A stretch of DNA of 64,000 nt from Streptomyces sp. NBC_01451 (lineage in GTDB: Bacteria; Actinomycetota; Actinomycetes; Streptomycetales; Streptomycetaceae), in contig NZ_CP109479.1 of assembly GCF_036227485.1 (NCBI RefSeq), positions 2,108,001 through 2,172,000 on the forward strand, written 5' to 3'. Each line of letters starts with the position of its first letter. The stretch's first letter is position 1. A program made the translations under genes and the position numbers. This document shows, one piece after another, positions 9,801-27,387 of this stretch. The notes beneath the pieces are model-generated. The model did not search any database, was not told where the DNA came from, and saw only the letters and a list, made by a program, of their open reading frames with translations.

Positions 9801-9803
9801 CCA

Positions 9804-9817
9804 GGGCCGAAGGGCCC
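9804..9817. promoter_or_regulatory. DosR/OsdR-like palindrome upstream of universal stress protein 1
   Basis: GGGCCGAAGGGCCC, 100 bases before the start at 9918. It matches the recurring 14-base pattern GGGMCSNWCGGCCC of this cluster at 12-13 positions. Role inferred from position and recurrence only. Confidence 0.45.
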
Positions 9818-9917
9818 CTCGGAAGGGCCTGCCCGGCCTCTGTCCCGGTACCCGCCCCGGTACCAGGCTCGGCGGCGGAAGAGCGACCCATGGGCAGCAA
9901 CGCTGGAGGTACGCCTC

Positions 9918-10826
9918 ATGCTTCGACACGTCACCGCAGGGATCGACGGGTCTCCCGAAAGCCTGGCAGCAGCTCACTGGGCGGCCCGCGAAGCCACGCG
10001 CCGGGGCGCCGCGCTGTGCCTGGTGCATGCCTGGGAGTGGCATCCGCGTCCGGCCCCGTCCGTGCCCGCGGACATGTCCGAACGGGCCTTGGCCGAGGAT
10101 CTGCCGGAACGGGTGGCCGACAGCGTGCGCGCCGCGCACCCAGGGTTGCAGGTCATCGGCCAGGCGCTGGCGGACTCGCCGGTCTCAGTCCTTCTCAAGG
10201 CGGCCGAGCTGGCCGAGTTGCTGGTCCTCGGCTCCCGTGGACTCGGCGGCGTCGCGGGGTTCCTGACGGGGTCCGTGTCACAGCGGGTCGTCGCCAGGGC
10301 GTCGGGTCCCGTGGTGCTGGTGAGGACGGGCGGGAGCATCGCCGACGAGCACTTCTCGGCGCCCGACGGCATCTCCCCGGAGGAGATCCCCGGGATCCCG
10401 TACCGCGATGTCGTCCTCGGTCTCGACACCGGCCGGCCCTGTGACGAACTGATCGGGTTCGCCTTCGAGGCCGCCGCGCGGCGGGGCTCCTCGCTGCGCG
10501 TGGTCCACGCCTTCAGGCGGGCGCCGGACTTCGCGGCGGCGGACAGGATCGTCCCGGTGAGCGGCCCGGAGCTGCGGGCGGAGCAGGAGCAGGCCGTGGT
10601 CGCCGTGCTGCGCCCCTGGTACGAGAAGTTCCCCGAGGTCGCCGTCACCGAGAGCGTCACCGAAGGACGTGCGGCCGACGAGCTGATCGGTGCCTCGGCC
10701 GGCGCGGCCCTCGTCGTGGTGGGACGCCGGATCCGCGAGTACCGTCTCGGCACCCACCTCGGCCCCGTCGCACACGCGGCGCTGCATCACGCGCCCTGCC
10801 CCGTCGCCGTCGTCCCGCACACCTGA
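9918..10826 (+). CDS. Tandem-domain universal stress protein
   Basis: 302 residues from the ATG at 9918, preceded by GGAGGT eight bases upstream. Two USP domains follow each other. Domain 1 (about 1-140) has TAGIDGSPESLAAAHWAARE and the ATP-binding GSRGLGGVAGFLTGSVSQRV (G-x2-G-x9-GS). Domain 2 (about 155-300) starts VVLGLDTG and ends VGRRIREYRLGTHLGPVAHA, where the second Gly-Ser motif is degraded to G-T-H. Actinobacterial tandem USPs are strongly induced by hypoxia and dormancy. A second copy lies at 11113, and a DosR-like palindrome lies upstream. Confidence 0.92.
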   Translation: MLRHVTAGIDGSPESLAAAHWAAREATRRGAALCLVHAWEWHPRPAPSVPADMSERALAEDLPERVADSVRAAHPGLQVIGQALADSPVSVLLKAAELAELLVLGSRGLGGVAGFLTGSVSQRVVARASGPVVLVRTGGSIADEHFSAPDGISPEEIPGIPYRDVVLGLDTGRPCDELIGFAFEAAARRGSSLRVVHAFRRAPDFAAADRIVPVSGPELRAEQEQAVVAVLRPWYEKFPEVAVTESVTEGRAADELIGASAGAALVVVGRRIREYRLGTHLGPVAHAALHHAPCPVAVVPHT

Positions 10827-10865
10827 ACAAGCCCTGGGGACAGGACAGTCGGCCCGGCACGGGCA

Positions 10866-11012
10866 CGCGTTCGCCGAGGGTGTCCGGGGACCTGGCGGAC
10901 GTGCTCGGCGGCAAGGGGGCGAACCTCGCCACGGAGCCGACCCGGCCGGGGGCGCCCGTACCCCCTGCCCCGGTTCACCGTCGTCATCCGTGTCTGCCGG
11001 GAGTGCCCTGCC
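10866..11012 (+). pseudogene. Relic of pyruvate phosphate dikinase N-terminus
   Basis: HAFAEGV, then in a neighbouring frame [20 protein letters not shown] and GAPVPP, then after another shift RFTVVIRVCREC. In intact PPDK these are contiguous near residue 5 ([40 protein letters not shown]). Two shifts and loss of everything after about residue 40 make this a relic. It is flanked by the two stress-protein genes. In other Streptomyces stress/hypoxia clusters ppdK occurs in such company, so this is probably a local gene loss. Confidence 0.78.
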
Positions 11013-11020
11013 CCCGGCGC

Positions 11021-11035
11021 GGGACCCGGGGCACT
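11021..11035. promoter_or_regulatory. DosR/OsdR-like palindrome upstream of universal stress protein 2
   Basis: GGGACCCGGGGCACT, 78 bases before the ATG at 11113. It matches GGGACC-N3-GGCCCT at all but one specified position. Role inferred. Confidence 0.5.
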
Positions 11036-11112
11036 GCCGTGGCCCGGCGGCCCCTGCTGACGCATGTCTCCTGCCCGGACACGAAATCGCGTCCCCTCAA
11101 GGAGGGCTCGAC

Positions 11113-11997
11113 ATGCTCCGCAACGTCACCGTCGGCCTGGACGGCTCACCGGAGAGCCTCGCCGCCGCCGACTGGGCGGCCCACGAGGCCCAGCTCCGCG
11201 ACCTGCCCCTGCGCCTCGTGCACGCCCTGCACCGGCAGCCCCACACGTACGCGTCACTGGCGGGCACCCGCATACCGTCGCCCGCGCGAGGATCGCACCA
11301 CGACCGGGCCGAACGCCTGCCGCGCGAGACATCGGCCCGGCTCGCCGAACGTCATCCCGGTCTGCGCGTCAGCGCCGAACAGAGCACGGAGCGGCCCGTC
11401 ACGGCCCTGCTGGCCGCCTCCCGGAACGCCGATCTCCTGGTGCTCGGCTCCCGGGGCCTGAGCGGAGTGACCGGGTTCCTGGCCGGCTCCGTCGCGCTGT
11501 CCGTCGTGGCCCGGACCGAGCGGCCGGTCGTCCTTGTCCGAGCCGGTGAAGGCGCCGGGACCGTACACATGTCGGGCGATGTCGTGCTCGGGCTCGACCT
11601 GGAGGACCCCGACGACCCCGTGATCGGGTTCGCGTTCCGGTCGGCTTTCCGCCGTGCGGCGAACCTGCGCGTCGTCCACGGCTGGCAGCCACCGTCCTCC
11701 TCCGGCTACGGCGACGCCTTCGACATCGAGCCCAACGCGGAACTGGGCGCGCGGGTGCGGCGCGAGCTGGGCGACGTACTGCGGCCGTGGCGGTCGAGGT
11801 TCCCCGGCGTCGAGGTGAGCGAGCGGACTCCGGTCGGACCGGCGGGCTCCCACCTGGTGAACGCCTCCCGGGACGCCGCGCTTGTCGTCGTCGGGCGGCG
11901 GAACCGTCGTACGCGGGCCGGGAACCACATCGGACCGGTGACGCACACGGTGCTGCAACACGCGGCCGCCCCGGTCGCGGTGATCCCGCACGATTGA
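11113..11997 (+). CDS. Tandem-domain universal stress protein
   Basis: 294 residues. AAGGAGGG precedes the ATG. Domain 1 carries VGLDGSPESLAAADWAAHEA and GSRGLSGVTGFLAGSVALSV; domain 2 carries DVVLGLDLEDPDDPVIGFAF and VGRRNRRTRAGNHIGPVTHT. As in the first copy, the second nucleotide-binding motif is altered. The same architecture and similar N-terminus (MLRNVTVGLDGSPESLAAA against MLRHVTAGIDGSPESLAAA) show that the two arose by duplication, with the ppdK relic now between them. Confidence 0.92.
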   Translation: MLRNVTVGLDGSPESLAAADWAAHEAQLRDLPLRLVHALHRQPHTYASLAGTRIPSPARGSHHDRAERLPRETSARLAERHPGLRVSAEQSTERPVTALLAASRNADLLVLGSRGLSGVTGFLAGSVALSVVARTERPVVLVRAGEGAGTVHMSGDVVLGLDLEDPDDPVIGFAFRSAFRRAANLRVVHGWQPPSSSGYGDAFDIEPNAELGARVRRELGDVLRPWRSRFPGVEVSERTPVGPAGSHLVNASRDAALVVVGRRNRRTRAGNHIGPVTHTVLQHAAAPVAVIPHD

Positions 11998-12145
11998 CCA
12001 CGCCTTCGTTCCGACCGGCGCGCGTCGGCCGGTCCGGCCGGCCGTCCTGGTCGGCGCGCGCCATCGGGCCGGCATCGGCCGCAGTCACAGTCGTCGAAGG
12101 TGCTCCTCGCCTCTGCTCATGTGCGAGGCGGGCGAACGGGGCCGT

Positions 12146-12802
12146 TCAGCGCGGGTCGTGACGATGGTCCACCGCGACGGCGGAGAGCCGGCCCCGCAAC
12201 GAGTAGCCGGAATCGCCCGCGCAGGGGGTGAACAGCACCCACAGGCCCGAGCGGAGGCGGGCTGCGACGGAACGCTCGGGGAGGCCGAGCGTGTGGGAGA
12301 CGGCCGCGCAGGAGCGGTCTCCGATGAGGTGGAGCGCGAGCTCGACGCGGTCGAGGGGCGAGGAGGCACCGTCGGGACAGCGGCCCCCGGTGACGGGCAG
12401 GTGTGCGCGGGCGGCGCGTGTCGCAGGGGAGGCGGGGACGGCAGCGGGGTACTCACCCGGTCCGAGGACGGCGGGAGGGTCGACGGGGTCTGTGAGCACC
12501 TCGGCCAGGGCCGAGTCGACGACACCGGGGGTGTCCGTCATGAGGGTGGACAGGGCGTGGATGGCCATCAGGTGGCGGTCGCACCAGGCGACGACCGAGC
12601 GTCGGCGGGCGAGGAGCCGTTCGGCCTGGTGGCGGGGTGACGTGTCGGGAGCCCGGGTGGTGTCCGGTGTGGTCACCACGTCCGGCTCCGCGCGTCGGTC
12701 CCGGGGCCCGGGTGCGTCGACCGCTGCCACTCCTGCCTCCCGTGCCTGCCGTGCTTCCCGGGAGGTCCCGTGCGCGGCACTGGATCCTTGCCGGGTTCGC
12801 AT
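12146..12802 (-). CDS. Sigma-70 region 4-like protein of unknown role
   Basis: About 218 residues from the ATG at 12802; the start is uncertain because the first 60 residues are low-complexity (Pro, Arg, Thr). Two parts look structured. One is a helical block RRRSVVAWCDRHLMAIHALS followed by TLMTDTPGVVDSALAEVL, which resembles ECF sigma region 2. The other is DRVELALHLIGDRSCAAVSH followed by TLGLPERSVAARLRSGL, which has the helix-turn-helix pattern of region 4. Key core-binding residues cannot be judged, so it may be a degenerate sigma factor or another DNA-binding regulator. It is convergent with the second stress-protein gene. Confidence 0.55.
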   Translation of the reverse strand: MRTRQGSSAAHGTSREARQAREAGVAAVDAPGPRDRRAEPDVVTTPDTTRAPDTSPRHQAERLLARRRSVVAWCDRHLMAIHALSTLMTDTPGVVDSALAEVLTDPVDPPAVLGPGEYPAAVPASPATRAARAHLPVTGGRCPDGASSPLDRVELALHLIGDRSCAAVSHTLGLPERSVAARLRSGLWVLFTPCAGDSGYSLRGRLSAVAVDHRHDPR

Positions 12803-12803
12803 G

Positions 12804-12818
12804 CCCTGGTGACCAGGG
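12804..12818. promoter_or_regulatory. Perfect 15-base palindrome abutting the start of the sigma-like gene
   Basis: CCCTGGTGACCAGGG (7-bp arms, one central base) ends two bases before the ATG at 12802. Its position would block ribosome or polymerase access, as an autoregulatory operator might. If the start is elsewhere it may be incidental. Confidence 0.35.
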
Positions 12819-13218
12819 CCCGGCCGTGAGTGCCGTGCCAAGAGGCTGGCAGCACCTGAAAGGTGGGCATGGTGCTCCGTCCGGAAGCGGTCGGCACGGC
12901 GCCGTGCAGCGCGGCAGGACGTCGTGGTCCTCGGGGAGGAGGACCGGAGCGACGGTCCTTCCTGATGCCCCAGGACACGGTCGTGGACTCCTGGCGCAGC
13001 GCCGTGTGTCTCTGGACGCGGCCGTACGGCAGGAGGGTTCGGGATCGAGCCGGTGGCCGCCGGGAAGCATCGGCGACCGTGCGGGGCCACTCCGGTGCAT
13101 CCGTGTCAACTGGCGGTGGGCGCCGGGGTCCAGGACGTCTGATCAGCAGCCTAGCCCCATTCGGCGCAGGCACAAGGGTCACCCACCGCGCGTGGCCGTA
13201 GCGGTGGCCATGGCGGTG
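12819..13218. other. Intergenic stretch without recognised gene
   Basis: Frames are open on both strands, as everywhere in this GC-rich DNA, but none shows a motif, ribosome site or conserved start that I can support. The doxX promoter boxes begin at 13219. Confidence 0.5.
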
Positions 13219-13269
13219 GAAGACCCGGGGCCTTCTACGGTCCGCTTCGGAGCAGGGACGTTCGGCCCC
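13219..13269. promoter_or_regulatory. Two DosR/OsdR-like boxes upstream of doxX
   Basis: GAAGACCCGGGGCCTTC at 13219-13235 is a palindrome with a 3-base centre. GGGACGTTCGGCCCC at 13255-13269 fits the cluster-wide pattern best (12 of 14). The centres are 35 bases apart, and the nearer one is about 120 bases before the gene. Role inferred. Confidence 0.5.
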
Positions 13270-13387
13270 TGTGGCGGTACCTGTCGGCACCTGACGGCCC
13301 GGACTGCCCGCGCGGGAGAGTCGGACCCTGGACGACGACGGCACGCGGACAGCCGTCGCGCCACGCCCACCAGAGCCCCGGACAGGG

Positions 13388-14023
13388 ATGAGCATCATGG
13401 CGGTACACGAAACTCCCGGCCGGCACACGGGTTTCCACCTCCCGTCGCGACACCGGGCCGGGACGGCCCGGAGGGCCGACGAGACCACGACCGACTCGAC
13501 GGCCACGGCGACCCGCGCCCGGGTTCTCGCGGGGCTGCGGATCGTCACCGGGTTCGTCTTCCTGTGGGCCTTCCTCGACAAGACCTTCGGCTGGGGCTAC
13601 GCCACCGCCTCCGGCAAGGGCTGGGCCGACGGCGGCTCACCCACCAAGGGCTTCCTCAGCGGCGTCGCCGCCGGACCCATGGAATCCACCTTCCACTCCT
13701 GGGCCGGAGCGGGCTGGGCGAACTGGCTGTTCATGCTCGGCCTGCTCGGCGTCGGCCTCGCCCTGGTCAGTGGCATCGCCCTGCGGCTCGCCGCGGTCGC
13801 CGGAACCGCCCTGATGGCGTTCATGTGGATCGCCGAGTGGCCGCCCGCCAAGGCGCTGTCCGACGGCACCCCGAGCATGTCCTCCAACCCGGTCGTCGAC
13901 TACCACGTCCTGTACGCGGCCGTCCTGATCGCCCTCGCGGTCACCTCGGCCGGCACCACCTGGGGCCTCGGCAGGGCCTGGGCCCGTCTCCCTGTCGTCA
14001 GCGACCACGCCTGGCTCCGCTGA
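13388..14023 (+). CDS. DoxX-like integral membrane protein
   Basis: 211 residues if the first ATG (13388) is used; an ATG at 13397 with AGGG ahead is equally likely. After a 45-residue charged leader come four hydrophobic helices: VLAGLRIVTGFVFLWAFLDK, WANWLFMLGLLGVGLALVSG, LRLAAVAGTALMAFMWIAEW and VVDYHVLYAAVLIALAVTSA. The conserved D-K-T-F-G-W-G-Y after helix 1 is typical of the DoxX family, subunits or relatives of thiosulfate:quinone oxidoreductase and redox-linked membrane complexes. In mycobacteria DoxX is part of an oxidative-stress complex. It belongs to the hypoxia/stress block by its promoter boxes. Confidence 0.85.
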   Translation: MSIMAVHETPGRHTGFHLPSRHRAGTARRADETTTDSTATATRARVLAGLRIVTGFVFLWAFLDKTFGWGYATASGKGWADGGSPTKGFLSGVAAGPMESTFHSWAGAGWANWLFMLGLLGVGLALVSGIALRLAAVAGTALMAFMWIAEWPPAKALSDGTPSMSSNPVVDYHVLYAAVLIALAVTSAGTTWGLGRAWARLPVVSDHAWLR

Positions 14024-14175
14024 ACACCGCCCGCTCCCCCACGGACCGTCGACCCGGTCCCGGGAGAGCGGGCCGTCGCACACCTGCCGACACCGCCGAT
14101 CGGACCCGGCGTCCCGTCGCCCTGGAGAGGACGGTGGCCCTGCGCGCCTCGCGCGCGAGCCGGCGTCCGGCGATC

Positions 14176-14206
14176 CCCCGCACCCCGCGATCGACCGGGT
14201 GCGGGG
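14176..14206 (+). terminator. 10-bp perfect hairpin downstream of doxX
   Basis: CCCCGCACCC, an 11-base loop and GGGTGCGGGG form a perfect stem about 150 bases after doxX. It is a candidate terminator, rather distant. The rest of 14024-14716 contains no gene I can support. Confidence 0.45.
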
Positions 14207-14536
14207 TGCCGTCGGCTTCGCCGGGCCGGCTGCCGGCTTCCCGCAGCGCCGTGCGGGAACGCCAGTCGCAGCAAACGGAGTTGGGCATCCCGGGCGAGGC
14301 CGGAAGAATTCCGCGACTGCACCACCTCCGCCGCCGCCACCGCCATGTTGAGGCGGACCGGGGCCGTGTCTTCCGGGACGAGTCGTTCGTCCTCCCGTTT
14401 CTGTACCTGTGCCAGAACCTTCACCCGCACCCGCGCCTACGGCTGCACCTTCACCTGCACCCGCACCTCCCGGGAGGTCTCCCGGAGGTCTCCCGGGCCC
14501 TGCTCCTGTACCGCCACCGCAGGCTGGGCCGCACAG

Positions 14537-14598
14537 TCGGGGCTCGGCGGTCGGGGCTCGGCGGTCAAGGCTCGGCGGTCGAGGCTCGGCGGTCGAGG
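14537..14598. repeat. 14-bp tandem repeat, about 4.4 units
   Basis: Units TCGGGGCTCGGCGG, TCGGGGCTCGGCGG, TCAAGGCTCGGCGG, TCGAGGCTCGGCGG and a partial TCGAGG. The unit is not a multiple of three, so the array is not coding. It lies between doxX and the end of the XRE-PNPOx gene. Confidence 0.8.
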
Positions 14599-14716
14599 CC
14601 GGTCGTACCGGTGGCACGCATCCGTGGCAGAGCGGCGGCGACGGCCGCGAGGAGACCCCGCTGGTGGGTTGACCGGCCATGACGGACCGGGGCCCGCGCG
14701 CCCACCCCGGAGGGGA

Positions 14717-15373
14717 TCAGCGGGCGCGGATCCGGCGTCCGGTGACCCGCTCCGGGGTGATGCGCACCCACAGTTCGCGGTCACCGCCCGCCCAGGGCGC
14801 CGAGTGGGCAGCGCCGACGAGGTGCCGGGCGGCGGCGGGGTCGGTGACCCATTCGGCACGGCCGACGACGAGGACGCTCCAGCCCTCGCTCAGTGCCTCG
14901 TCGATGTGGTCCACCTCGAAGGCGGCCTCGGCTCCGGCTGCCAGGGCGGGCGTGGTGCCGCGCGCGGTACTGAAGGCGACCGAGCCGTCCACGACCGTGT
15001 AGTTGACCGGGACGATGGCGGGGCCGTCGGGTGTGGACACCGAGACGCGTCCGACACCGTGGGTGGACAGCCGGGCCCAGCACTCGCCCGGGTCCAGCTC
15101 CGTCAGGTCGGGGTGGCGGGCGGCCCGGCCGATGCCGGACGGCAGGTCGGCATCGCCGCCGCGCAGTTGGGCCACCGTGGTCTCCAGCGCGTCGGCCAGC
15201 CGAATCAGGAAGCCCGTGCCCGGGGACGCCGTCGGCCGCTCCTCCACGTACCGCAGGTAGTCCGGAGCCGTGCCCGCCAGCGCGGCCACCTGGTCCCCGG
15301 TGAGTCCCAACTCCTCGCGCCGCGCTGCCACCCGTCGTCCGATGTCTCCGGCGTTCCTCGTCGGTTCCGGCAC
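14717..15373 (-). CDS. XRE-family helix-turn-helix fused to pyridoxamine 5'-phosphate oxidase-like domain
   Basis: 218 residues. Residues about 10-70 form an XRE DNA-binding domain (RREELGLTGDQVAALAGTAP, DYLRYVEERP). Residues about 85-210 form a split-barrel flavin-binding domain of the PNPOx type (LSTHGVGRVSVSTPDGPAIV, NYTVVDGSVAFSTARGTTPA, GWSVLVVGRAEWVTDPAAAR). Such fusions are common in actinobacterial stress clusters and may bind flavin, F420 or heme, but their signal is not established. It follows the P-type ATPase gene by 24 bases on the same strand, so the two form an operon. Confidence 0.85.
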   Translation of the reverse strand: MPEPTRNAGDIGRRVAARREELGLTGDQVAALAGTAPDYLRYVEERPTASPGTGFLIRLADALETTVAQLRGGDADLPSGIGRAARHPDLTELDPGECWARLSTHGVGRVSVSTPDGPAIVPVNYTVVDGSVAFSTARGTTPALAAGAEAAFEVDHIDEALSEGWSVLVVGRAEWVTDPAAARHLVGAAHSAPWAGGDRELWVRITPERVTGRRIRAR

Positions 15374-15397
15374 GGCCGGTCACTTCCCTTCGCGTTG

Positions 15398-18154
15398 TCA
15401 CTCGTCGGTCATGGGATGGGGACCGGTCCCGGACCGGTCCCCGTCCGGGCGTCCGACGGCCCGGGTGGACCGGCTCTCCGCGCGGGCGGTGACGAATCCG
15501 GTGAGCCCCGCGCCGAGGGCGGCCACGAGACCGGGCCAGGACGGCGGCGCGGTCTCCAGGACGGCCCGCAGGAACGGCACGTACAGCGCGGCGGCTCCCA
15601 GCAGCGCCGCGGCCAGCACCGCCCAGGGCAGGAAGGGGTTCTCGCGGGTGAACAGCCGCTCCCGCAGCCCCAGTACGACGCCGAGCTGGGCGGCCAGCAG
15701 CGCGAGGAACAGCGTGGTCTGCCAGGGCTGCCCGGTGTGCCGGACCCACAGCGCCGCGGCGAGGCTCGTGCAGGTGGCCACCGTGCCGAGGCGCAGTACC
15801 CGCTGCCACAGCCCACCGCCGAGCACATGCTGTCCGGGCGGGCGCGGCGAGCGCCGCATGGCGTGCCGGGAGACCGGCTCGGCGCCCATGGCGACGCCGG
15901 TCAGACCGTGGGTGAGGAGGTTGATCCACAGGATCTGGCCGGCCCGCAGGGGCAGGGCGAGGCCGAGCAGCGGGCCGAGCAGCATGACGAGGATCTCCGC
16001 GACGCCACCGGCCAGGGCGTAGAGCAGGAAGCGGCGGATGTTGTCGTAGACCCTGCGGCCCTCCTCCACCGCCGTGACCACGGTGGACAGTTCGTCGTCG
16101 GCGAGCACCAGGTCGGCGGCCTGCCGGGCGACCTCGGTTCCCCGGCGGCCCATGGCCACGCCGATGTCGGCCTGCCGCAGCGCCGGGCCGTCGTTGACGC
16201 CGTCGCCGGTCATGGCCGTGACGGCACGGCCGGCACGCCATGCCTGGACGATGTCCAGCTTCTGCTGAGGAGTGGTGCGGGCGAACACCCGGACCCGGGT
16301 GAGGTCCGGAACCTCCCCGGCGGCCAGCTTGCGGCCGGTGACCACCTCGGCGGAGGCGGTGTCGCCGGAAACGGCGTCGCCGGGGCCGAGGATGCCGACC
16401 CTGATCGCGATGGCGCGGGCGGTGGCCGGATGATCGCCGGTGATCAGCACCGGGGTGATGCCGGCTTGTCGGCAGGCGGTGACGGTCGCCGCCGCCGCTT
16501 CCTTGGGCGGGTCGCTGATGGCCACCAGCCCGAGCAGTCGCAGCCCGGTCTCGGCGTCCTCGTACCGGGCCGGGAGGTCCGCGCGCAGGGCCGATGCCAC
16601 GGCCAGGACGCGGAAGCCCTCGGCGGAGAGCGCGGCGGCCTCCTTGCGGACGCGCTCCAGCAGGTCGGGGCTCTCGTCCAGGGTCGCGCCGTCGAGCACC
16701 GCCTCCGGCGCGCCCTTGAGGCAGACCTCCACCTGGCCGGAGGGGGCGCGGTGCAGCGTGGTCATGCGCTTGCGGAGACTGTCGAACGGCACCTCGCCGA
16801 TACGCGGGTGAGCGGGCAGCAGTTCGTCGCGGTCCCGGCCGGCCTTGACCGCGGCGGCGAGCAGCGCGGCCTCGGTGGGATCCCCGAGCGCGGTCCAGAC
16901 GTCGGTGGCGTCGGGACCGTCGGCGCCGTCGGTGGCGTCGGTGCCGTGCGTGTCTTCCACGTCGTCGGTGCCGTCGCTGTCGTCAGCGCCGTCCGTGCCC
17001 TTCGTACTGTTCCCGGGTGGCCGCAGCGAGGCGTCGTTGCACAGCGCCGCCGCCGTGAGCAGGGCCTGTACGGCGCGCAGTGCGGCGGGGTCGGGGGGCC
17101 CGCCCGCGACCAGGACCTCACCGGCGGGCCCGTAGCCGGAACCGGTGAGCGTGGCCGTGCCCCGGATGGTCCACACCCGTTCCACGACCATCCGGCCCTC
17201 GGTGAGGGTGCCCGTCTTGTCGGTGGCCAGCATGGTGACCGAACCGAGGGTCTCCACCGCGGACAGCCGCCGCACCAGCGCGTGGCGGGCGGCCATCCGC
17301 CGGGCGCCGAGCGCCAGGCCGAGGGTGACCACGGCGGGCAGCGACTCCGGTACGGCGGCCACGGCGAGGCTGATCGCGACGACCGCCATGGCCTGCGGCG
17401 ACTGACCGCGGGCCAGGCCGAGCACGAAGACGACCAGGCACAGGCCCACCGCCACCAGGGCCAGCACCCGGCCGAGACCGGCCAGCCGGTGTTGCAGCGG
17501 GGTGGGTTCGGGGTGGGGGTGCAGCAGGGCGGCGATACGGCCGAGCGCGCTGTGCGGCCCGGTCGCGGTGACGGTGGCGACGGCCCGGCCCCGCACCACG
17601 ACGGTGCCCGCCTGGAGCCGTGCGGCGTCCGGGTCGTCGGCCCGGGCGTCCTTGTCCACCGGCACCGACTCCCCGGTCAGCGCCGACTCGTCGACCAGCA
17701 GCGCGGACGACTCGGCCAGCGTCGCGTCAGCAGGGACGATGTCGCCCTCGCCGAGCAGCAGCGCGTCGCCCGGTACGACGGCCGCGGACGGCACCTCGCG
17801 CTCGGTGCCGCCGCGCAGCACCCGGGCCGTCGGGGCGGTCATGGCGGACAGCGCGGCGACGGCGTTGTCCGCGCGTACCTCCTGGGCCACCCCCACGGCG
17901 GTGTTCGCCACGATCACCAGGGCGATGACCACCGCGTCCGCGTAGTCCCCGGTCGCCACGGTGAGGACCACCGCCGCGAGCAGGATCAGGATCATCGGAT
18001 CGCGCAGTTGCGCGCCGATCCGCGACCGCAGCGGTATGCGGCGCTGCGCGCCCAGCTCGTTGGGACCGTGTTCCGACAACAGCCGGGCGGCCCGGTCCTC
18101 GGTGAGCCCCACCGGGTGCGCGATGCCGGGGGCGGGCGCCGGCTGAGCTGTCAT
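15398..18154 (-). CDS. Cation-translocating P-type ATPase (P2-like)
   Basis: 918 residues from the ATG at 18154 (GGAGAG ahead). Landmarks in order: N-terminal cation-ATPase domain (to about 60), actuator TGES (161-163), membrane motif [20 protein letters not shown] (about 266-285; P-E-S-L-P in place of the Ca-ATPase P-E-G-L-P), phosphorylation site [11 protein letters not shown] (Asp312), nucleotide-binding [13 protein letters not shown] and [12 protein letters not shown] hinge, then six C-terminal helices. This places it with type II pumps (Ca, Mn or Na/K-like). The N-domain contains an Asp/Gly/Thr-rich insert at about 386-418. A DosR-like box lies at 18280. Rv1997/CtpF-like pumps in mycobacterial dormancy regulons are the nearest functional parallel. 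Confidence 0.9.
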
Positions 18155-18269
18155 GGTTCTCTCCGGGTTCGATGCGGTGGCCGCCGGTGGTGCGCGGTCT
18201 CGGGGCAGGCACCCGGTATGCACGGGGTGCGTGCCGGTTCTGGCACGCGATCACCACTGGTGTGCGCCG

Positions 18270-18878
18270 TCACGGCGGTGGAACCGTCGGCCCCTCCTGT
18301 CCGGAGCCCGGGGCATTGTCAGGTGTACTGCCGCTCCACCGGGGCCCGGTGAGGGCCCACGTCCGCTCCCACTGCCGAGCGCGGTGGCGGTCCAGTCCCA
18401 TCCGTACGGCCCGGCGGCCGACCAGCAGGAACAGGGCGACGCCGCTCGCCGCCAGCATCCCGGCGAAGACGGACAGCGCGACGGCCTGCCCCGGGGTGGG
18501 CGGCGCGCCGACGAGCCGGCCCTGGTCGTCCGTCCAGATCACGGTGCCGGCGCCCGCCCGGCTGCCCGCCACGACCCGTACCTCCGCCGTACGGACGGAG
18601 TCGTCGGGTGCCGTCCACCGCACCAGCGCCCAGGTGCGGGCGTACGCGCCGGGCCCCGGGGCGCCGGCGTCCTCGGTCAGCACGGCGGAGGTACGGTGCC
18701 GCTCCTGGCGTTCCTGGAGCAGCACGCTTCCGACCCGTACCGATCCGAGGGCTCCGGCGAGGGGCATGCCCGCCGCCATCAGCACGGACGTCACCAGGAC
18801 GACCCATGCCTCGACGGCATCCGAGCGGCGCCTGAGCGGATTGCGCCGCCACCGCCACCACCGCACCCTCATGCCCAT
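18270..18878 (-). CDS. Rv1733c-like membrane protein
   Basis: 202 residues from the ATG at 18878; a second Met two codons on is an alternative. A basic Trp/Arg-rich leader (MRVRWWRWRRNPLRRRSD) is followed by a first helix (AVEAWVVLVTSVLMAAGMPL), an extracytoplasmic domain with TWALVRWTAPDDSVRTAEVR and a second helix (AVALSVFAGMLAASGVALFL). This architecture is that of the Rv1733c family, a DosR-regulon membrane protein in mycobacteria that is abundant in Streptomyces. Its biochemical role is unknown. It diverges from narK and shares a 314-base control region with it. Confidence 0.8.
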   Translation of the reverse strand: MGMRVRWWRWRRNPLRRRSDAVEAWVVLVTSVLMAAGMPLAGALGSVRVGSVLLQERQERHRTSAVLTEDAGAPGPGAYARTWALVRWTAPDDSVRTAEVRVVAGSRAGAGTVIWTDDQGRLVGAPPTPGQAVALSVFAGMLAASGVALFLLVGRRAVRMGLDRHRARQWERTWALTGPRWSGSTPDNAPGSGQEGPTVPPP

Positions 18879-18954
18879 GGCCGAACCCGCTTTCCGTTCA
18901 CGGCGGTACGAGTAACCAGCAGCGACGGTCGCACACACTCCGCACACCGGAGCA

Positions 18955-19071
18955 GAGCCGATCGGCCCGTACAAGAGGCCGATCGGCCCCGTTCGGCCCT
19001 CGACGGCGACCGACGGGTGCCGCCCGGCGCATGTACCCCGGTCGGCGCGGAAGACGAGGACCAACGGCCCC
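18955..19071. promoter_or_regulatory. Three DosR/OsdR-like boxes between the Rv1733c-like gene and narK
   Basis: GAGCCGATCGGCCC (18955-18968) and AGGCCGATCGGCCC (18976-18989) are near-identical sites exactly 21 bases apart, two helical turns. AGGACCAACGGCCCC (19057-19071) lies 122 bases before narK. All share the CGGCCC half seen upstream of the other stress genes. The rest of the 314-base gap shows nothing else. Confidence 0.55.
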
Positions 19072-19192: not shown

Positions 19193-20602
19193 ATGCCCAC
19201 GACGCCCCACCCCCGCCCTGCGAAGCCGGAGACCCCGACAGCCAAGTCCGCAGCAGACAAGTCCTCGGCGGGCAAGTCCGCAGCAGACAGGTCCTCGGCA
19301 GGCACGTCGCCGACGGGCGACCCGGCGGACAGCCCGCGGGACGGCATCGACCCACCCCGGTCCGGCCCCGGCCCGGACGCGCAGGCGCCGCCGTCGGCCG
19401 GCCGACGGTGGCTGATGCTGGTGCTCGCCACGGCCGGGTTCGCGGTGAACTTCTGGGCCTGGGCACTGCTGAGCCCGCTCGGCCCACGGTTCAAGGACAG
19501 CCTGCAACTGAGCTCGTTCCAGCAGGCGTTGCTGGTCGCCGTGCCGGTGGTGGTGGGTTCGCTGGGCCGCATACCGGTGGGTGCGCTGACGGACCGGTTC
19601 GGCGGCCGGGTGATGTTCCCGCTGGTCTCCGCGGCCACCATCGTCCCCGTCCTGTACCTGGGGCTGGCCGGACACTCCTCCCTGAGCCGGCTGCTGGTGG
19701 GCGGGTTCTTCCTCGGCGTCGGCGGCACCGCGTTCGCGGTGGGGGTGCCGTTCGTGAGCGCCTGGTTCCCGCCCGAGCGCCGGGGGCTCGCGATCGGTGT
19801 CTTCGGGGCGGGGATGGGAGGTACCGCCATCAGCGCCCTGACCACGGTGAACCTGGTGAAGACGCACGGTCTGGCGACCCCGTTCGTGGTGACGGCGATC
19901 GTGCTGGCCTGCTACGCGACGCTGGCCGCGTTCCTGCTGCGCGACGCCCCGGGCAGGACCGTACCGGCCGGGACCATGACGGGCCGGCTCGCCGCCACCG
20001 TCAGGCTCGGTGTCACCTGGCAGGCAGCGGCGCTGTACGCGGTGGCGTTCGGCGGCTATGTCGCCTTCTCCGTCTATCTGCCCACCTACCTGAAGTCCGG
20101 GTACGGGCTGGCGCAGGCCGACGCGGCCAACCGGATGGCCGGGTTCGTGCTGCTGGCGGTGGTGATGCGGCCGGTCGGCGGCTGGCTGTCCGACCGGCTG
20201 GGCCCCACCCGCGTACTGACGGCCGCGCTCGCCGTGGTCGCGGTGAGCGCGGCCGTCCAGTCCTTCGCCCCGGCGCTGGCCCCGCTGGGCACCATCGCGT
20301 TCCTGGCGATCGCCGCCGCGCTCGGCGCGGGCAGCGGCGCCACCTTCGCCCTCGTCGCCCTGCTCGCCCCGGCCGGCAAGGTCGGCGCCGTCACCGGCGT
20401 CGTCGGCGCGGCCGGCGGGCTGGGCGGCTTCGTCCCACCCCTGCTGATGGGTTCGCTGTACGGCGCCTACGGCGACTACGCGCTCGGGCTGGCCCTGCTC
20501 GCCCTGATCGCCGCCAGTGCCCTGGCGTTCACCGCGACCACCGTCCGCAAGGCCGTCACCCGGGGCGCCCACCGCCCTCCGACGGCCGTCAACCCGGCCT
20601 GA
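19193..20602 (+). CDS. narK: Nitrate/nitrite MFS transporter
   Basis: 469 residues, twelve transmembrane helices starting near residue 73 (WLMLVLATAGFAVNFWAWAL). The NarK/NNP signatures are visible: the Arg in a GSLGRIPVGALTDRFGGR loop between helices 2 and 3, GTAFAVGVPFVSAWFPPERR and G-rich helix GVFGAGMGGTAISAL. It should import nitrate or exchange it for nitrite in support of NarG, whose active site faces the cytoplasm. The long hydrophilic N-terminus contains two copies of a ten-residue unit (KSAADKSSAG, KSAADRSSAG). Hemerythrin follows 11 bases on and then the nar genes, so all are one operon. Confidence 0.93.
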   Translation: MPTTPHPRPAKPETPTAKSAADKSSAGKSAADRSSAGTSPTGDPADSPRDGIDPPRSGPGPDAQAPPSAGRRWLMLVLATAGFAVNFWAWALLSPLGPRFKDSLQLSSFQQALLVAVPVVVGSLGRIPVGALTDRFGGRVMFPLVSAATIVPVLYLGLAGHSSLSRLLVGGFFLGVGGTAFAVGVPFVSAWFPPERRGLAIGVFGAGMGGTAISALTTVNLVKTHGLATPFVVTAIVLACYATLAAFLLRDAPGRTVPAGTMTGRLAATVRLGVTWQAAALYAVAFGGYVAFSVYLPTYLKSGYGLAQADAANRMAGFVLLAVVMRPVGGWLSDRLGPTRVLTAALAVVAVSAAVQSFAPALAPLGTIAFLAIAAALGAGSGATFALVALLAPAGKVGAVTGVVGAAGGLGGFVPPLLMGSLYGAYGDYALGLALLALIAASALAFTATTVRKAVTRGAHRPPTAVNPA

Positions 20603-20613
20603 GACGAGTCACC

Positions 20614-21189
20614 ATGTGTGAGTACTGCGGCTGCCAGGCACTGCCCGGGATCGCCGAACTGACCCGTGAGCACGAGCTGGTCGTCAATCTCATCGGGGAC
20701 GTCCGTACCGCGCACCGCGACGCGGACGTCTCCCGGATGGCGTGGATCGCGCGCCGCGTCTCCGCCGTACTCGTGCCGCACACGGCGGTGGAGGAGGAGG
20801 GGCTCTTCCCGCCGTTGGCAGAGGAGTTCCCCGACGGCATGGCGGCACTCCGGGCCGAACACCGGCGTGTCGAGGCGGTTCTCGACGAGGCCGCCGCGGG
20901 CGTCCCGGACGACCCCGCCTGGCCCCGGCGGCTCCTGGACATCCTGGATCTGCTGCGCGACCACATCCTCAAGGAACAGGACGGCGTGTTTCCGGCCGCC
21001 CTGGCCGGGCTGAGCACGGAGGACTGGGAGGCCATGGACGCGGTCCGCTCCCGCGTCGGCACGCTGAGCGCGGATTTCGCGGCAACGGGATCCGCCCCGA
21101 CGGAGTTCGCCCCGGAAGCCGGTGCCGATCAGCGGCACACCGGATCACAGCAGGACGGGCCGCTGACGCCCGGGAAGGCGGCATCATGA
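20614..21189 (+). CDS. Hemerythrin HHE-domain protein
   Basis: 191 residues. An N-terminal MCEYCGC (Cys2, Cys5, Cys7) precedes a four-helix hemerythrin fold with the expected iron ligands: His20 (TREHELV), His56 and Glu60 (VPHTAVEEEGLF), His83 (RAEHRRVE), and His117 and Glu121 (RDHILKEQDG). The family binds a di-iron site and senses, stores or detoxifies oxygen or nitric oxide. Placed between narK and narG and overlapping narG by ATGA, it may protect or sense during nitrate respiration, when NO can form. The last 45 residues are hydrophilic and probably disordered. Confidence 0.88.
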   Translation: MCEYCGCQALPGIAELTREHELVVNLIGDVRTAHRDADVSRMAWIARRVSAVLVPHTAVEEEGLFPPLAEEFPDGMAALRAEHRRVEAVLDEAAAGVPDDPAWPRRLLDILDLLRDHILKEQDGVFPAALAGLSTEDWEAMDAVRSRVGTLSADFAATGSAPTEFAPEAGADQRHTGSQQDGPLTPGKAAS

Positions 21190-24100
21190 GCCCGGAAGAC
21201 TCGGACACCTCGGACACCTCAGGCACCGCGGACACCGACCCGCAGTCACGCCGGCCGGGGGGCCGACCGGCCGGTCTGGACAGCGAGTTGGCGGACGCGC
21301 TGGTGGGCACCCGCCGGTTCTTCACCAGAGCCGAGGTCTCCGCCGACCACCGCACCCTGTACAGGATCGGTGGCCGCAAGGCCGACGACTTCTACCGGGA
21401 CCGATGGAGCCACGACAAGGTGGTGCGCTCCACCCACGGCGTCAACTGCACCGGCTCGTGTTCGTGGAAGGTGTACGTCAAGGACGGGATCATCACCTGG
21501 GAGTCCCAGCAGACCGACTACCCCACGGTCGGTCCGGACAGCCCCGAGTACGAGCCGCGCGGCTGCCCGCGCGGCGCCGCGTTCTCCTGGTACACCTACT
21601 CGCCCACCCGGGTCCGCTACCCCTATGTGCGCGGGGTGCTCCTGGAGATGTACCGGGAGGCCAGGGCCCGGCTCGGTGACCCGGTGCTGGCGTGGGCGGA
21701 CGTCGTCTCCGACCCGGAGCGCTCCCGGCGCTACAAGTCCGCGCGCGGCAAGGGCGGCCTGGTGAGGGCGAGTTGGGACGAGGCGAGCGAGATGATCGCC
21801 GCCGCACACGTCCACACCATCAAGGAGTACGGTCCCGACCGGCTGGCCGGGTTCTCGCCGATCCCGGCGATGTCGATGGTCTCCCATGCGGCGGGGGCCC
21901 GCTTCTACTCACTGCTCGGCGGGGTGATGCTGTCGTTCTACGACTGGTACGCCGACCTGCCGGTCGCCTCCCCGCAGGTCTTCGGGGACCAGACCGACGT
22001 CCCCGAGTCCGGCGACTGGTGGGACGCCGGCTATCTGATCATGTGGGGCTCGAACCTGCCGGTGACCCGCACCCCGGACGCGCACTGGATGGCGGAGGCC
22101 CGCTACCGGGGGCAGAAGGTCATCGCGGTCGCCCCGGACTACGCCGACAACGTGAAGTTCGCCGACGAGTGGCTGCCCGCAGCGCCGGGCACCGACGGCG
22201 CGCTGGCCATGTCGATGGGACACGTGATCCTGAAGGAGTTCTTCGTCGACCGCCGGGCCGGCTACTTCACCGACTACGTCAAGCGGTACACCGACCTGCC
22301 CTTCCTCGTCACCCTCGAACAGCGCGGCACCGGGCCCGAGTCGACCTACGTACCCGGGAAGTTCCTCACCGCCGCCGACCTGGGCGGCACGGCGGCCGAG
22401 GCGGAGAACGCCGAGTTCAGGACCGTCCTGCTCGACGCCGCGACCGGCGAGCCGGTCGTCCCGAACGGTTCGCTCGGCCACCGCTACGGCGAGTCCGGCG
22501 CCGGGAAGTGGAACCTCGACCTCGGCGACACCGACCCGCTGCTGACCGCAGCCGGTGCTGACGGCGGCGAGGACGCCGTGACAGTCGAGCTGACCCGGTT
22601 CGACACCCCGGACGGGACCGCCGGGCAGCTGCGGCGCGGTGTCCCCGTACGCCGGGTCGCCGGGCAGCTGGTGACCACGGTGTTCGACCTGCTCCTCGCC
22701 CAGTACGGCGTGGCCCGCGAGGGGCTGCCGGGGAGCTGGCCGACCGGCTACGACGACCCCGACCAGCCCTACACCCCGGCCTGGCAGGCGGCCATCACGG
22801 GGGTGCCCGGTGAGACGGCGGCCCGCATCGCGCGCGAGTTCGCCACCAACGCGGAGGAGTCCAAGGGCCGCTCGATGATCATCATGGGGGCGGGGACCAA
22901 CCACTGGTTCCACTCCGACACCATCTACCGCTCCTTCCTCACCCTGACGACACTGACCGGCTGCCAGGGCGTCAACGGCGGCGGCTGGGCCCACTACGTG
23001 GGGCAGGAGAAGGTCCGCCCGATCACCGGCTACTCGGCGGTCGCGACGGCCGCCGACTGGCACCGGCCCGCCCGCCAGATGATCCAGACGGCCTACTGGT
23101 ACCTGCACACCGACCAGTTCCGCTACGACCCCTTCAGCGCCGACACCCTCGCCGCGGCGGGCGCGGGCGGCGCGTTCGCCGGGAAGAGCACCGCGGACGT
23201 CATCGCCGCCTCGGCCCGGATGGGCTGGATGCCGTCCTACCCGACGTTCGACCGCAACCCGCTCACCCTCGCGAGCGACGCGGCAGCCGCCGGGCAGGAG
23301 GTGTCGGAGTACGTCGTGGACGAACTCAAGGCCGGGCGGCTGAAGTTCGCGGGCGAGGACCCGGACGCGCCGGAGAACTTCCCCCGGATACTGACCATCT
23401 GGCGGGCGAACCTGCTCGGCTCCTCCGCCAAGGGCAACGAGTACTTCCTCAAGCACCTGCTCGGCACCGACTCCGCCGTACGCGCCACCGAGGCACCGCC
23501 CGGTGCCCGTCCACGCGACGTGGTGTGGCGGGAGGAGGCGCCGGTGGGCAAGCTCGACCTGCTGCTCACCCTGGACTTCCGGATGACCAGCACCACCGTC
23601 TACTCCGACATCGTGCTGCCGGCGGCGACCTGGTACGAGAAGCACGACCTGAACACCACGGACATGCACCCGTTCGTGAACTCCTTCAACCCGGCCATCC
23701 CGCCGCCGTGGCAGACCCGCACCGACTGGGACGCCTTCAACACCGTCGCGGCGGCGTTCAGCCGTCTCGCCGAGGGACGGCTCGGCACGGTGAAGGACGT
23801 GGTGGCGGCGCCGCTGCTGCACGACACCCCCGACGCGATGGCCACCCCGCACGGGCGGGTCCGGGACTGGAAGGCCGGCGAGTGCGAGCCGGTCCCCGGC
23901 CGGACCATGCCCAAGCTGGTGGTGATCGAGCGCGACTACCCGGCCGTAGCCGACCGGATGACCGCCCTCGGCCCGCTGCTCGACACCCTGGGCGCCACCA
24001 CCAAGGGCGTCACCTTCGACGTACGGCAGGAGCTGGAGTACCTGCGCCACAAGAACGGCACCGTGCGCGGCGGTCCGGCCGACGGCCGCCCGTCGATCGC

Positions 24101-24968
24101 CCGGGACGTGCAGGTCTGCGAGGCGATCCTGGCCCTCTCCGGCACCACCAACGGGCACCTGGCCACCCAGGGGTTCCGCACCCTGGAGGCCCGTACCGGC
24201 GTCGAGTTGGCCGATCTGGCCGCCGAGGCGGAGGGCAGGCGGGTCACCTTCGCCGACACCCAGGCGGGCCCCGTCCCGGTCATCACGTCGCCGGAGTGGT
24301 CGGGGACGGAGTCCGGCGGGCGCCGCTACTCGCCGTTCACCATCAACGTCGAACGCCTCAAGCCCTGGCACACCCTGACGGGCCGTCAGCACTTCTTCAT
24401 CGACCACGACTGGATCGCCGAACTCGGCGAGTGGATGCCCGTCTACCGGCCGCCGCTGAACATGCACGCCCTCTTCGACGAGCCGGCGGTCGGCGACCAG
24501 GGCGAACTCGGCATCACCGTGCGCTACTTGACCCCGCACAACAAGTGGTCCATCCACTCCGAGTACCAGGACAACCTGTTCATGCTCTCGCTCTCCCGGG
24601 GCGGCCCGACCGTCTGGATGAGCAAGGAGGACGCGGCGAAGATCGGCGTGCACGACAACGACTGGATCGAGGCGGTAAACCGCAACGGCGTCGTCGCCGC
24701 CCGCGCGGTCGTCTCCCACCGCATGCCGGAAGGCACCGTCTACATGCACCACGCCCAGGACCGGCTCATCGACGTCCCCCGCACCGAGACCAACGGGCGG
24801 CGCGGCGGCGTCCACAACTCGCTGACCCGGCTGCTGGTCAAGCCCAGCCATCTCATCGGCGGCTACGCCCAGTTGACGTACGCCTTCAACTACCTCGGCC
24901 CGACCGGCAACCAGCGCGACGAGGTCACGGTCATCCGGCGCCGCACCGACCAGGAGGTGACGTACTGA
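21186..24968 (+). CDS. narG: Respiratory nitrate reductase, alpha subunit
   Basis: 1260 residues, normal for NarG. The FS0 [4Fe-4S] ligands are His84, Cys88, Cys92 (HGVNCTGSCSW) and Cys127 (PRGCPRGA). The molybdenum-ligand Asp is in SFYDWYADLPVASPQ, followed by QTDVPESGDWWDAGYLIMWG. The C-terminal molybdopterin dinucleotide domain includes TPHNKWSIHSEYQDN. It reduces nitrate to nitrite on the cytoplasmic face with electrons from quinol via NarI and NarH. There is no Tat signal, as in other membrane-bound Nar. The ATG overlaps the hemerythrin stop by four bases. Confidence 0.98.
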   Translation: MSPEDSDTSDTSGTADTDPQSRRPGGRPAGLDSELADALVGTRRFFTRAEVSADHRTLYRIGGRKADDFYRDRWSHDKVVRSTHGVNCTGSCSWKVYVKDGIITWESQQTDYPTVGPDSPEYEPRGCPRGAAFSWYTYSPTRVRYPYVRGVLLEMYREARARLGDPVLAWADVVSDPERSRRYKSARGKGGLVRASWDEASEMIAAAHVHTIKEYGPDRLAGFSPIPAMSMVSHAAGARFYSLLGGVMLSFYDWYADLPVASPQVFGDQTDVPESGDWWDAGYLIMWGSNLPVTRTPDAHWMAEARYRGQKVIAVAPDYADNVKFADEWLPAAPGTDGALAMSMGHVILKEFFVDRRAGYFTDYVKRYTDLPFLVTLEQRGTGPESTYVPGKFLTAADLGGTAAEAENAEFRTVLLDAATGEPVVPNGSLGHRYGESGAGKWNLDLGDTDPLLTAAGADGGEDAVTVELTRFDTPDGTAGQLRRGVPVRRVAGQLVTTVFDLLLAQYGVAREGLPGSWPTGYDDPDQPYTPAWQAAITGVPGETAARIAREFATNAEESKGRSMIIMGAGTNHWFHSDTIYRSFLTLTTLTGCQGVNGGGWAHYVGQEKVRPITGYSAVATAADWHRPARQMIQTAYWYLHTDQFRYDPFSADTLAAAGAGGAFAGKSTADVIAASARMGWMPSYPTFDRNPLTLASDAAAAGQEVSEYVVDELKAGRLKFAGEDPDAPENFPRILTIWRANLLGSSAKGNEYFLKHLLGTDSAVRATEAPPGARPRDVVWREEAPVGKLDLLLTLDFRMTSTTVYSDIVLPAATWYEKHDLNTTDMHPFVNSFNPAIPPPWQTRTDWDAFNTVAAAFSRLAEGRLGTVKDVVAAPLLHDTPDAMATPHGRVRDWKAGECEPVPGRTMPKLVVIERDYPAVADRMTALGPLLDTLGATTKGVTFDVRQELEYLRHKNGTVRGGPADGRPSIARDVQVCEAILALSGTTNGHLATQGFRTLEARTGVELADLAAEAEGRRVTFADTQAGPVPVITSPEWSGTESGGRRYSPFTINVERLKPWHTLTGRQHFFIDHDWIAELGEWMPVYRPPLNMHALFDEPAVGDQGELGITVRYLTPHNKWSIHSEYQDNLFMLSLSRGGPTVWMSKEDAAKIGVHDNDWIEAVNRNGVVAARAVVSHRMPEGTVYMHHAQDRLIDVPRTETNGRRGGVHNSLTRLLVKPSHLIGGYAQLTYAFNYLGPTGNQRDEVTVIRRRTDQEVTY

Positions 24969-26719: not shown

Positions 26720-27387
26720 CCTCCACGAAGAAGCGCGGAGCAGCCGCCCGCGGGGACACCGCCCGGCACAATGCCGCCTGGCAGATCCAGTCCCTCCTCC
26801 TCGGCTATCCCGACAAACAGCTGCTCGAACAGACGCTGCTGCTACGGGTGGTCACCGACACGCTGCCCGACCGGATCGCCGAGCCGCTGCGCCGGTTCCT
26901 CGGGCACCTCGACCGGACGCCCGCCACCGAACTGGCGGCGGACTACGTCGCCACCTTCGACCACCGCAAACGCAACTGCCTCTTCCTGACGTACTACGCC
27001 CACGGCGACACCCGCAACCGCGGCGCCGCACTGCTGCGCCTCAAGCAGACCTACGCCGCCGCCGGACTGCGGCTGACCGACGAGGAACTGCCCGACCACC
27101 TGTGCGTCGTCCTGGAGTTCGCCGCCATCGGCGACCCCGAAGCAGGACGGCGCCTCCTCACCGAGCACCGGGCCGGTCTGGAACTGCTGCGCCTGGCACT
27201 GCGCGACGCGCGATCCGCCTGGGCCGACGTCCTCGACTCCGTATCGGCGACCCTGCCCCCGCCGGCCGGTGACGAGCGCGAGGCCGTCGCCAGACTCGCC
27301 GCCCAGGGACCGCCCGAGGAGCAGGTCGGTCTCGCGCCGTTCGCGCCGCCGGAGTTCATGCCCGCTCCGACGGGAGGCCGGTCATGA
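26716..27387 (+). CDS. narJ: Nitrate reductase assembly chaperone
   Basis: 223 residues. WQIQSLLLGYPDKQLLEQTL at the N-terminus and the family hallmark YVATFDHRKRNCLFLTYYAH, with GDTRNRGAALLRLKQTY after it, identify the NarJ/TorD-type chaperone that holds apo-NarG until the molybdenum cofactor and NarI are in place. It overlaps narH and narI by four bases each, so expression is stoichiometrically linked. The last 25 residues are Pro/Gly-rich. Confidence 0.94.
   Translation: MTSTKKRGAAARGDTARHNAAWQIQSLLLGYPDKQLLEQTLLLRVVTDTLPDRIAEPLRRFLGHLDRTPATELAADYVATFDHRKRNCLFLTYYAHGDTRNRGAALLRLKQTYAAAGLRLTDEELPDHLCVVLEFAAIGDPEAGRRLLTEHRAGLELLRLALRDARSAWADVLDSVSATLPPPAGDEREAVARLAAQGPPEEQVGLAPFAPPEFMPAPTGGRS

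Follow-up and report, generated by a model that had tools for sequence, protein, structure and literature searches.

The stretch of DNA analysed here, hereafter the window, comprises 64,000 nucleotides of the 10.27-Mb, 72% GC chromosome of Streptomyces sp. NBC_01451 (genome G000; G000:C1:2108001-2172000) and carries a block of stress and nitrate genes. These code for two universal stress proteins (USP1 and USP2), a DoxX-like protein, a P-type ATPase, an Rv1733c-family protein and the nitrate transporter NarK, the last followed by a hemerythrin gene and narGHJI. An original prediction had proposed that seven 14-base palindromes, about 75-140 bases before both USP genes, doxX, the ATPase gene, the Rv1733c-like gene and narK, unite these genes in a dormancy regulon. 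We found each of the seven 14-mers once on the plus strand, exactly at the predicted coordinates, and the distances to the starts of the named genes are 77-136 bp. The proposed pattern, GGGMCSNWCGGCCC, is the box published for OsdR in Streptomyces coelicolor, AGGGCCGATCGGCCCT (PMC5069765). Because most sites match this box, the block would appear to be a peripheral portion of an already described low-oxygen regulon, of which this strain has an unusually large version. In our judgment it is very likely that the 9804, 13255 and 18955/18976 palindromes, and probably that at 19057, serve as sites of OsdR-type regulators encoded elsewhere in the chromosome, a confidence that refers to the explanation as a whole, from the boxes through an OsdK/OsdR relay to activation of the block genes. 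The regulon itself is already known, and its targets predicted in 2016 include narK (SCO0213), hemerythrin (SCO0212) and the nar2 cluster (PMC5069765). The new findings are how large it is in this strain and that paired boxes prefer a spacing of 20-23 bp.

OsdR-type boxes in the stress and nitrate block

We scored the sites with a symmetric 16-column matrix built from the 26 OsdR boxes printed in Table 1 of PMC5069765, which is independent of the sites originally predicted. Four sites were strong (13255, 9804, 18976 and 18955, in descending order from 18.8 to 12.8; Table 1 below) and lie 83-126 bp ahead of start codons, and 19057 scored moderately (10.6). A second matrix, derived from six promoters tested by electrophoretic mobility shift assay, gave nearly the same ranking, with 9804/18976 and 18986/19057 swapping places. 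A weaker site at 18986-18999 (11.3) was absent from the original list; its box overlaps that at 18975, the two being 10 bp apart, which is an unusual arrangement. The fit to GGGMCSNWCGGCCC itself was uneven: 13255 matches exactly, as does 9804 on the minus strand, while 18280, 18955, 18976 and 19057 carry one mismatch and 11021 carries three. With at most one mismatch the pattern occurs in 21 rows in the window (each palindrome counting once per strand), whereas 9.2 +/- 3.2 are expected, and none of 100 shuffles reached 21. With three mismatches there were 644 rows against 682 expected. Site 11021 is uninformative because admitting it requires this level, at which there is no excess; given its three mismatches and a score of -5.3, we rejected it as an OsdR box. 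Site 18280 (6.8) is at background level, with about three equally good sites per 9.3 kb, and falls within the 3′ end of the Rv1733c-like open reading frame. Within the 9,268 bp of the block four sites score at least 12, against 0.13 predicted from a 1.6-Mb sample of the same genome (80 even stretches of 20 kb); the Poisson P for this excess is about 1e-5, for a block that was picked after the fact.

The single regulon proposed for the block is supported by strong boxes before USP1, the DoxX-like gene and the Rv1733c-like gene and by a moderate one before narK, but not for USP2 and the ATPase gene. As 11021 is no box and 18280 is background, neither of these two genes has a demonstrated box of its own. 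USP2 is possibly read from the USP1 promoter, and transcription from the Rv1733c-like gene may continue into the ATPase gene.

The 18955/18976 pair is spaced by 21 bp, inside a range that proved to be favoured more widely. Of the 24 box pairs at 12-80 bp in the strain's own genome (box islands, the window and some further stretches), 13 were spaced 20-23 bp, and so were 51 of the 106 distinct pairs at 140 loci (138 from relatives, two from this genome). Five permuted matrices, with 5-41 primary sites each against 218, yielded 0, 1, 0, 1 and 3 partners, and no partner was at 20-23 bp. The best helical period in a Rayleigh test was 11.2-11.5 bp, and because this exceeds the 10.5 bp of B-DNA we restrict our claim to the preference for 20-23 bp. 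For longer multiples of the spacing the distances in relatives are suggestive (P 0.0025 beyond 25 bp, kinship ignored). Among the open-licence papers listed in our searches, most of them seen as entries only, we found no description of a 20-23 bp spacing for Streptomyces, and the main text of PMC5069765 does not contain the words "doxx", "hydrogenase", "tandem", "spacing" or "helical". DevR of Mycobacterium tuberculosis is described as binding adjacent primary and secondary sites cooperatively (PMC3029386).

Genome-wide distribution and candidate regulators

How far boxes favour DNA upstream of genes depended on the threshold. In the sample, 22 sites scored at least 12 (13 coding, six upstream and three other), which corresponds to 10/Mb in coding and 35/Mb in upstream DNA. 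At a score of at least 13 there were five upstream (29/Mb), seven coding (5.5/Mb) and two other sites, and at 15 or more no coding, three upstream and one other, three of these four within one island stretch. High-scoring boxes favour upstream DNA, and there is no excess at the looseness of the original prediction; density in coding DNA is in effect equal at loose thresholds, not at a proper one. Perfect boxes, GGGCCGNNCGGCCC, number 56 genome-wide versus 43 for the reversed control. Among the 50 listed of these 56, 25 lie near 0.42, 0.87-0.92, 1.21-1.24, 9.66 and 9.91-9.92 Mb, and 12 gaps are shorter than 5 kb where 1.2 are expected. The five box islands, whose boundaries were set after the hits were seen, lie towards both chromosome ends. 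They hold 64 boxes scoring at least 12, of which 48 lie no more than 350 bp ahead of a start, 10 in other non-coding DNA and six in coding DNA, with a median distance to the start of 119 bp. The signal lies in the position and clustering of the boxes, not in their total number.

The genome encodes five OsdR-like paralogues (100, 84, 76, 70 and 62% identity), all other full-length matches being at most 44% identical. The response regulator at 903365-904057 finds its best match in the Protein Data Bank (PDB) in DevR (3c3w, E 3.8e-78). All five keep KT(V/I)KN in the recognition region, presumably including the residues that touch DNA. Three of the five lie in islands and have boxes before their own genes, the usual sign of autoregulation. 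At least one OsdR-like regulator (E 1e-70; 14 candidates scored per genome) is present in 184 of 199 same-genus genomes, with five in this genome and in G012 and four in 16 genomes. Three sensors match an OsdK-like query over its full length (1239895, 9676325 and 548938). The sensor at 1239895 lies inside an island, that at 9676325 is 2.7 kb past the last box of the 9.66-Mb island, and that at 548938 adjoins the 70% regulator. The HPPM histidine, which we take to hold the heme, is kept in all three, and the GAF domain of 1239895, the only sensor searched in this way, is closest to DevS/DosT (E 1e-48). The assignment to an OsdR/DosR-type box and a dormancy regulon is thus supported by the consensus match, the five regulators with KT(V/I)KN and the preference of high-scoring boxes for upstream DNA.

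That the regulator is not encoded in the window, as originally stated, also held. The two NarL-type regulators found there (49626-50282 and 50775-51500) are each 40% identical to OsdR and have STVKS and TTVKT in place of KT(V/I)KN, so we discarded them as OsdR candidates. Their genes are similar and in tandem; in the alignment the product of the second has ND for DD in the acidic pocket of the receiver and is missing residues past the conserved D.

In the explanation that we favour, a fall in oxygen (or a rise in nitric oxide, NO) would relieve OsdK-type sensor kinases with a DevS-like GAF domain, which would phosphorylate OsdR. Dimers of OsdR would bind the boxes, cooperatively where two of them sit two helical turns apart, and would activate USP1, perhaps together with USP2, as well as the DoxX-like gene, the Rv1733c-like gene with the ATPase gene, and narK-hemerythrin-narGHJI; transcripts of USP2 and the ATPase gene would arise by read-through. 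The signal and phosphorelay steps come from published OsdK/OsdR work (PMC5069765).

The system most like this one is the OsdR (SCO0204) regulon of S. coelicolor, which shares the 16-bp box, a two-component OsdK/OsdR system with similarity to DevS/DevR, like kinds of targets (USPs, narK-hemerythrin, nar, pyridoxamine oxidase and PPDK) and boxes mostly 36-391 bp before starts (PMC5069765). Unlike in S. coelicolor, as far as the same source describes it, the nar, usp, doxX-like, ATPase and Rv1733c genes here form a separate block at 2.12 Mb, and there are five islands towards both ends, five OsdR-like regulators and three full-length OsdK-like sensors. In Streptomyces lividans, the nar transporter, PPDK, USPs and the putative formate-lyase SCO0206 rise together with osdR; its formate-lyase activase is listed as an N-terminal fragment and putative pseudogene (PMC6302529), whereas here the activase is full-length and follows pfl. 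In its mode of action our system resembles the DevR/DosR dormancy regulon of M. tuberculosis (PMC3029386, PMC3338549), from which it is distinct because its regulators are OsdR paralogues of a Streptomyces and not DevR in a mycobacterium. Among PDB structures, it is the DevR/DosR system that stands closest to the strain's regulator (DevR) and to its GAF domain (DevS/DosT). Unlike in M. tuberculosis, the block holds a full NarGHJI operon and there is no role in host infection. The DevR regulon of M. tuberculosis reportedly covers overlapping kinds of genes (USPs, narK2 and Rv1733c), and the mycobacterial box is said to be less GC-rich than the one found here.

Conservation in relatives and alternative explanations

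For the conservation of the boxes we used the best-matching loci from the genomes that carry each gene (68 with the DoxX-like gene, 187 with the Rv1733c-like gene and 62 with the formate-lyase). Gene starts in the fetched DNA were set by a simple codon-usage caller, and those of USP1 and the Rv1733c-like gene were corrected by hand. A box scoring at least 10 precedes the DoxX-like gene in 28 of 30 loci, our own included (27 of 29 relatives), all 28 at -101 to -138, and the relatives that keep it share 69-78% protein identity. The same threshold was reached in 15 of 30 loci for the Rv1733c-like gene and 23 of 30 for pyruvate formate-lyase (own locus included in both), and in 48 of 80 for narK, counted from -450 to +30 of the called start and with paralogues and other genera included; most narK loci are from Streptomyces. 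The eight best-matching Rv1733c-like loci, our own among them, all have a box scoring at least 15. Equal stretches inside the same genes gave 0/30 (DoxX-like), 1/30 (Rv1733c-like), 0/80 (narK) and 0/30 (formate-lyase). At the nearest narK locus (88%), that of Streptomyces sp. SID12501, the USP1 and narK box 16-mers are identical to those of the window; no DoxX-like, pyridoxamine oxidase, ATPase or Rv1733c-like gene was found in the SID12501 stretch examined. The ATPase gene was matched in five of 121 genomes, our own included, at E 1e-200, and a box scoring at least 9 was present in none of the four relatives in the 0.35-1.5 kb of sequence available before the gene. At one ATPase locus (L256) there are two hits, both past the 3′ end of the gene.

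The genes and the regulator also tend to occur together. No genome with the DoxX-like gene (0/68) lacks an OsdR-like regulator (E 1e-70), versus 15 of 131 without the gene (P 0.003), and with the DoxX-like gene, the formate-lyase or a V-type ATPase taken together the regulator is lacking in 0/100 versus 15/99 others (P 1.6e-5, kinship ignored). Boxes scoring at least 12 at the Rv1733c-like gene occur in 0/5 OsdR-lacking genomes versus 13/25 others, which at P 0.052 is suggestive only.

Several results nevertheless weigh against OsdR sites. Two of the seven predicted sites, 11021 and 18280, fail, the narK box in the window is only moderate (19057, 10.6), and the matrix is based on published sites that are for the most part predictions. 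In the sample, densities at score 8 are close (211/Mb upstream versus 172/Mb coding). Genome-wide, the one-mismatch pattern (536+542) shows no excess over the reversed pattern (567+531), and the symmetric pattern occurs less often than its control (155 versus 195). Permuted matrices gave on average more total hits in the sample than the real one at thresholds 8-14 and, at 15 and 16, about as few or fewer hits outside coding DNA. No box scoring at least 10 was found in 15 of 30 Rv1733c-like and 32 of 80 narK loci, SID12501 has the 18955/18976 pair reduced to one weaker box (11.7), and because of shared ancestry the counts from relatives are not independent. One genome, G024, carries boxes before its doxX-like gene and pfl, and its only OsdR-like match (E 8e-80) is at the level of the 62% copy; seven of the 68 genomes with the DoxX-like gene, G024 among them, have such a regulator, and of these seven the doxX-like locus was fetched only for G024.

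The failed sites, the equality of one-mismatch hits with the reversed control and the lack of an excess of total hits over permuted matrices are what would be expected if the sites were chance palindromes of a 72% GC genome that unite nothing. We nevertheless regard chance as very improbable, as high-scoring boxes are biased upstream and clustered (12 gaps below 5 kb versus 1.2), the DoxX-like box keeps its place in relatives with diverged proteins, and the DoxX-like gene co-occurs with OsdR. It is hardly credible that the inverted repeats are RNA hairpins or terminators and not protein sites: GC-rich inverted repeats in intergenic DNA would suit such structures, but most of ours stand before starts and many are paired at 20-23 bp, an arrangement that a terminator should not need. 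The regulator could also be another NarL-type protein with a similar box, either the pair in the window or the 62% OsdR-like protein, possibly of the SCO3818 type. G024 points in this direction, SCO3818 partners OsdK in S. coelicolor (PMC5069765), and at E 1e-10 the genome yields 58 matches to OsdR, among them the five OsdR-like ones. We consider this improbable, since the window's regulators have no KT(V/I)KN, three OsdR paralogues sit inside box islands with their own genes boxed, and the 62% copy has no box scoring at least 9 in its own locus.

Island genes, a possible wider anaerobic programme and the genes of the block

Boxed genes in the islands include a hydrogenase cluster, a PorA-like operon, GAPDH and, next to an OsdR gene, pyruvate formate-lyase with its activase, and PPDK has a strong box 444 bp ahead and a weaker one about 150 bp ahead. 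The genes for AdhE (910431), phosphoketolase (9669346) and PPK2 (425855) are island neighbours with no box scoring at least 11 directly before them. The formate-lyase, with its glycyl-radical domain, and the full-length activase lie at L013:7637-10686 (G000:C1:9662637-9665686); the lyase, found in 62 of 199 same-genus genomes, is divergent from an OsdR paralogue and has boxes at -104 and -127. The hydrogenase cluster, of which four proteins were scanned, includes a maturation protease and subunits resembling those of sulfhydrogenase; it spans L003:12360 to L004:2939 (G000:C1:872360-882939) and has four boxes scoring at least 11 in front.

Streptomycetes possess anaerobic enzymes although they are held to be incapable of growth in the absence of oxygen, a situation named the "anaerobic paradox" (PMC5069765). 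It is conceivable, if doubtful, that the dormancy regulon has expanded in this lineage to an anaerobic programme that is coded by spacing and run by several regulators, with five regulators, three sensors and tens of boxes, a proposal that also takes in the boxes paired at 20-23 bp, the five islands with the nar block, and fermentative and nitrate metabolism. If so, cooperative and graded promoters would result from pairs of boxes set at two helical turns (20-23 bp). The boxed genes (formate-lyase/activase, a sulfhydrogenase-type [NiFe] hydrogenase, a PorA-like ferredoxin oxidoreductase, GAPDH, and nitrate uptake and reduction), together with the unboxed AdhE, phosphoketolase and PPK2, would then give a supposedly obligate aerobe a fermentative and nitrate metabolism. 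This strain, in which five OsdR-like regulators, a boxed formate-lyase and a single nar cluster come together, is a good setting in which to test the role of the anaerobic enzymes. A motif noticed by eye has become a tested regulon assignment, with the real sites separated out, the regulators located, and the nar block placed as an outlier of a larger system; the growth in regulator number and the spacing of the boxes are the parts most worth following.

Genes for an archaeal/V-type rotary ATPase lie at L008:8918-16180 (G000:C1:1213918-1221180), and the catalytic subunit is present in 17 of 199 genomes. We did not tie them to the nearest perfect box upstream, at 1221745, because 565 bp separate it from the called start of the operon and a divergent gene is 90 bp away from it; co-occurrence of this ATPase with OsdR was not significant (0/17 lack OsdR, P 0.37).

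Table 1. Predicted boxes, other candidate sites and genes of the block (positions in the window)
Feature	Position	Strand	Remarks
OsdR box AGGGCCGAAGGGCCCC before USP1	9803..9818		score 16.6; same 16-mer at the USP1 orthologue of SID12501 (L114:6646)
USP1, universal stress protein, two Usp domains	9918..10826	+	PF00582, E 2e-46, two stretches
Rejected site before USP2	11021..11034		score -5.3; no box scoring at least 9 before USP2 in SID12501
USP2, universal stress protein, two Usp domains	11113..11997	+	PF00582, E 5e-44, two stretches
OsdR box AGGGACGTTCGGCCCC before DoxX-like gene	13254..13269		score 18.8
DoxX-like protein	13388..14023	+	name from the original prediction; in 68/199 sampled same-genus genomes
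Helix-turn-helix and pyridoxamine 5′-phosphate oxidase-like protein	14717..15331	-	PF12900, PF13560
P-type ATPase, cation-transporting (P2-like)	15398..18154	-	PF00122, PF00689, PF13246, PF00690
Rv1733c-family protein	18270..18878	-	NCBIfam NF050032, 163 bits (cut-off 80)
Background-level site before ATPase	18280..18293		score 6.8
OsdR box AGAGCCGATCGGCCCG before Rv1733c-like gene	18954..18969		score 12.8
OsdR box GAGGCCGATCGGCCCC	18975..18990		score 15.6; 21 bp from the 18954 box
Third, weaker box GGCCCCGTTCGGCCCT, overlapping	18985..19000		score 11.3; not in the original prediction
Moderate OsdR box GAGGACCAACGGCCCC before narK	19056..19071		score 10.6; identical 16-mer in the same place in SID12501
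NarK-type nitrate/nitrite transporter, major facilitator superfamily	19193..20602	+	TIGR00886 best, 200 bits (below cut-off 312); PF07690
Hemerythrin-domain protein	20614..21189	+	PF01814
narG, narH, narJ, narI, respiratory nitrate reductase	21186..28127	+	TIGR01580, TIGR01660, TIGR00351 above cut-off

Among the proteins of the block, the DoxX-like one had no match in Pfam or NCBIfam, and the best NCBIfam match of the P-type ATPase was the Ca PMR1-type, under the cut-off of that model. NarJ was assigned by position only, without a scan, and the single NarG match in the genome at E 1e-50 is that of the block. A minus-strand open reading frame at 12146-12679, with no Pfam or NCBIfam match, is kept in SID12501 at 81%. 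Judged from N-terminal sequence only, a response-regulator-like gene (30117-30857) and, adjoining it, a possible kinase gene (28537-30045) lie just past the nar cluster.

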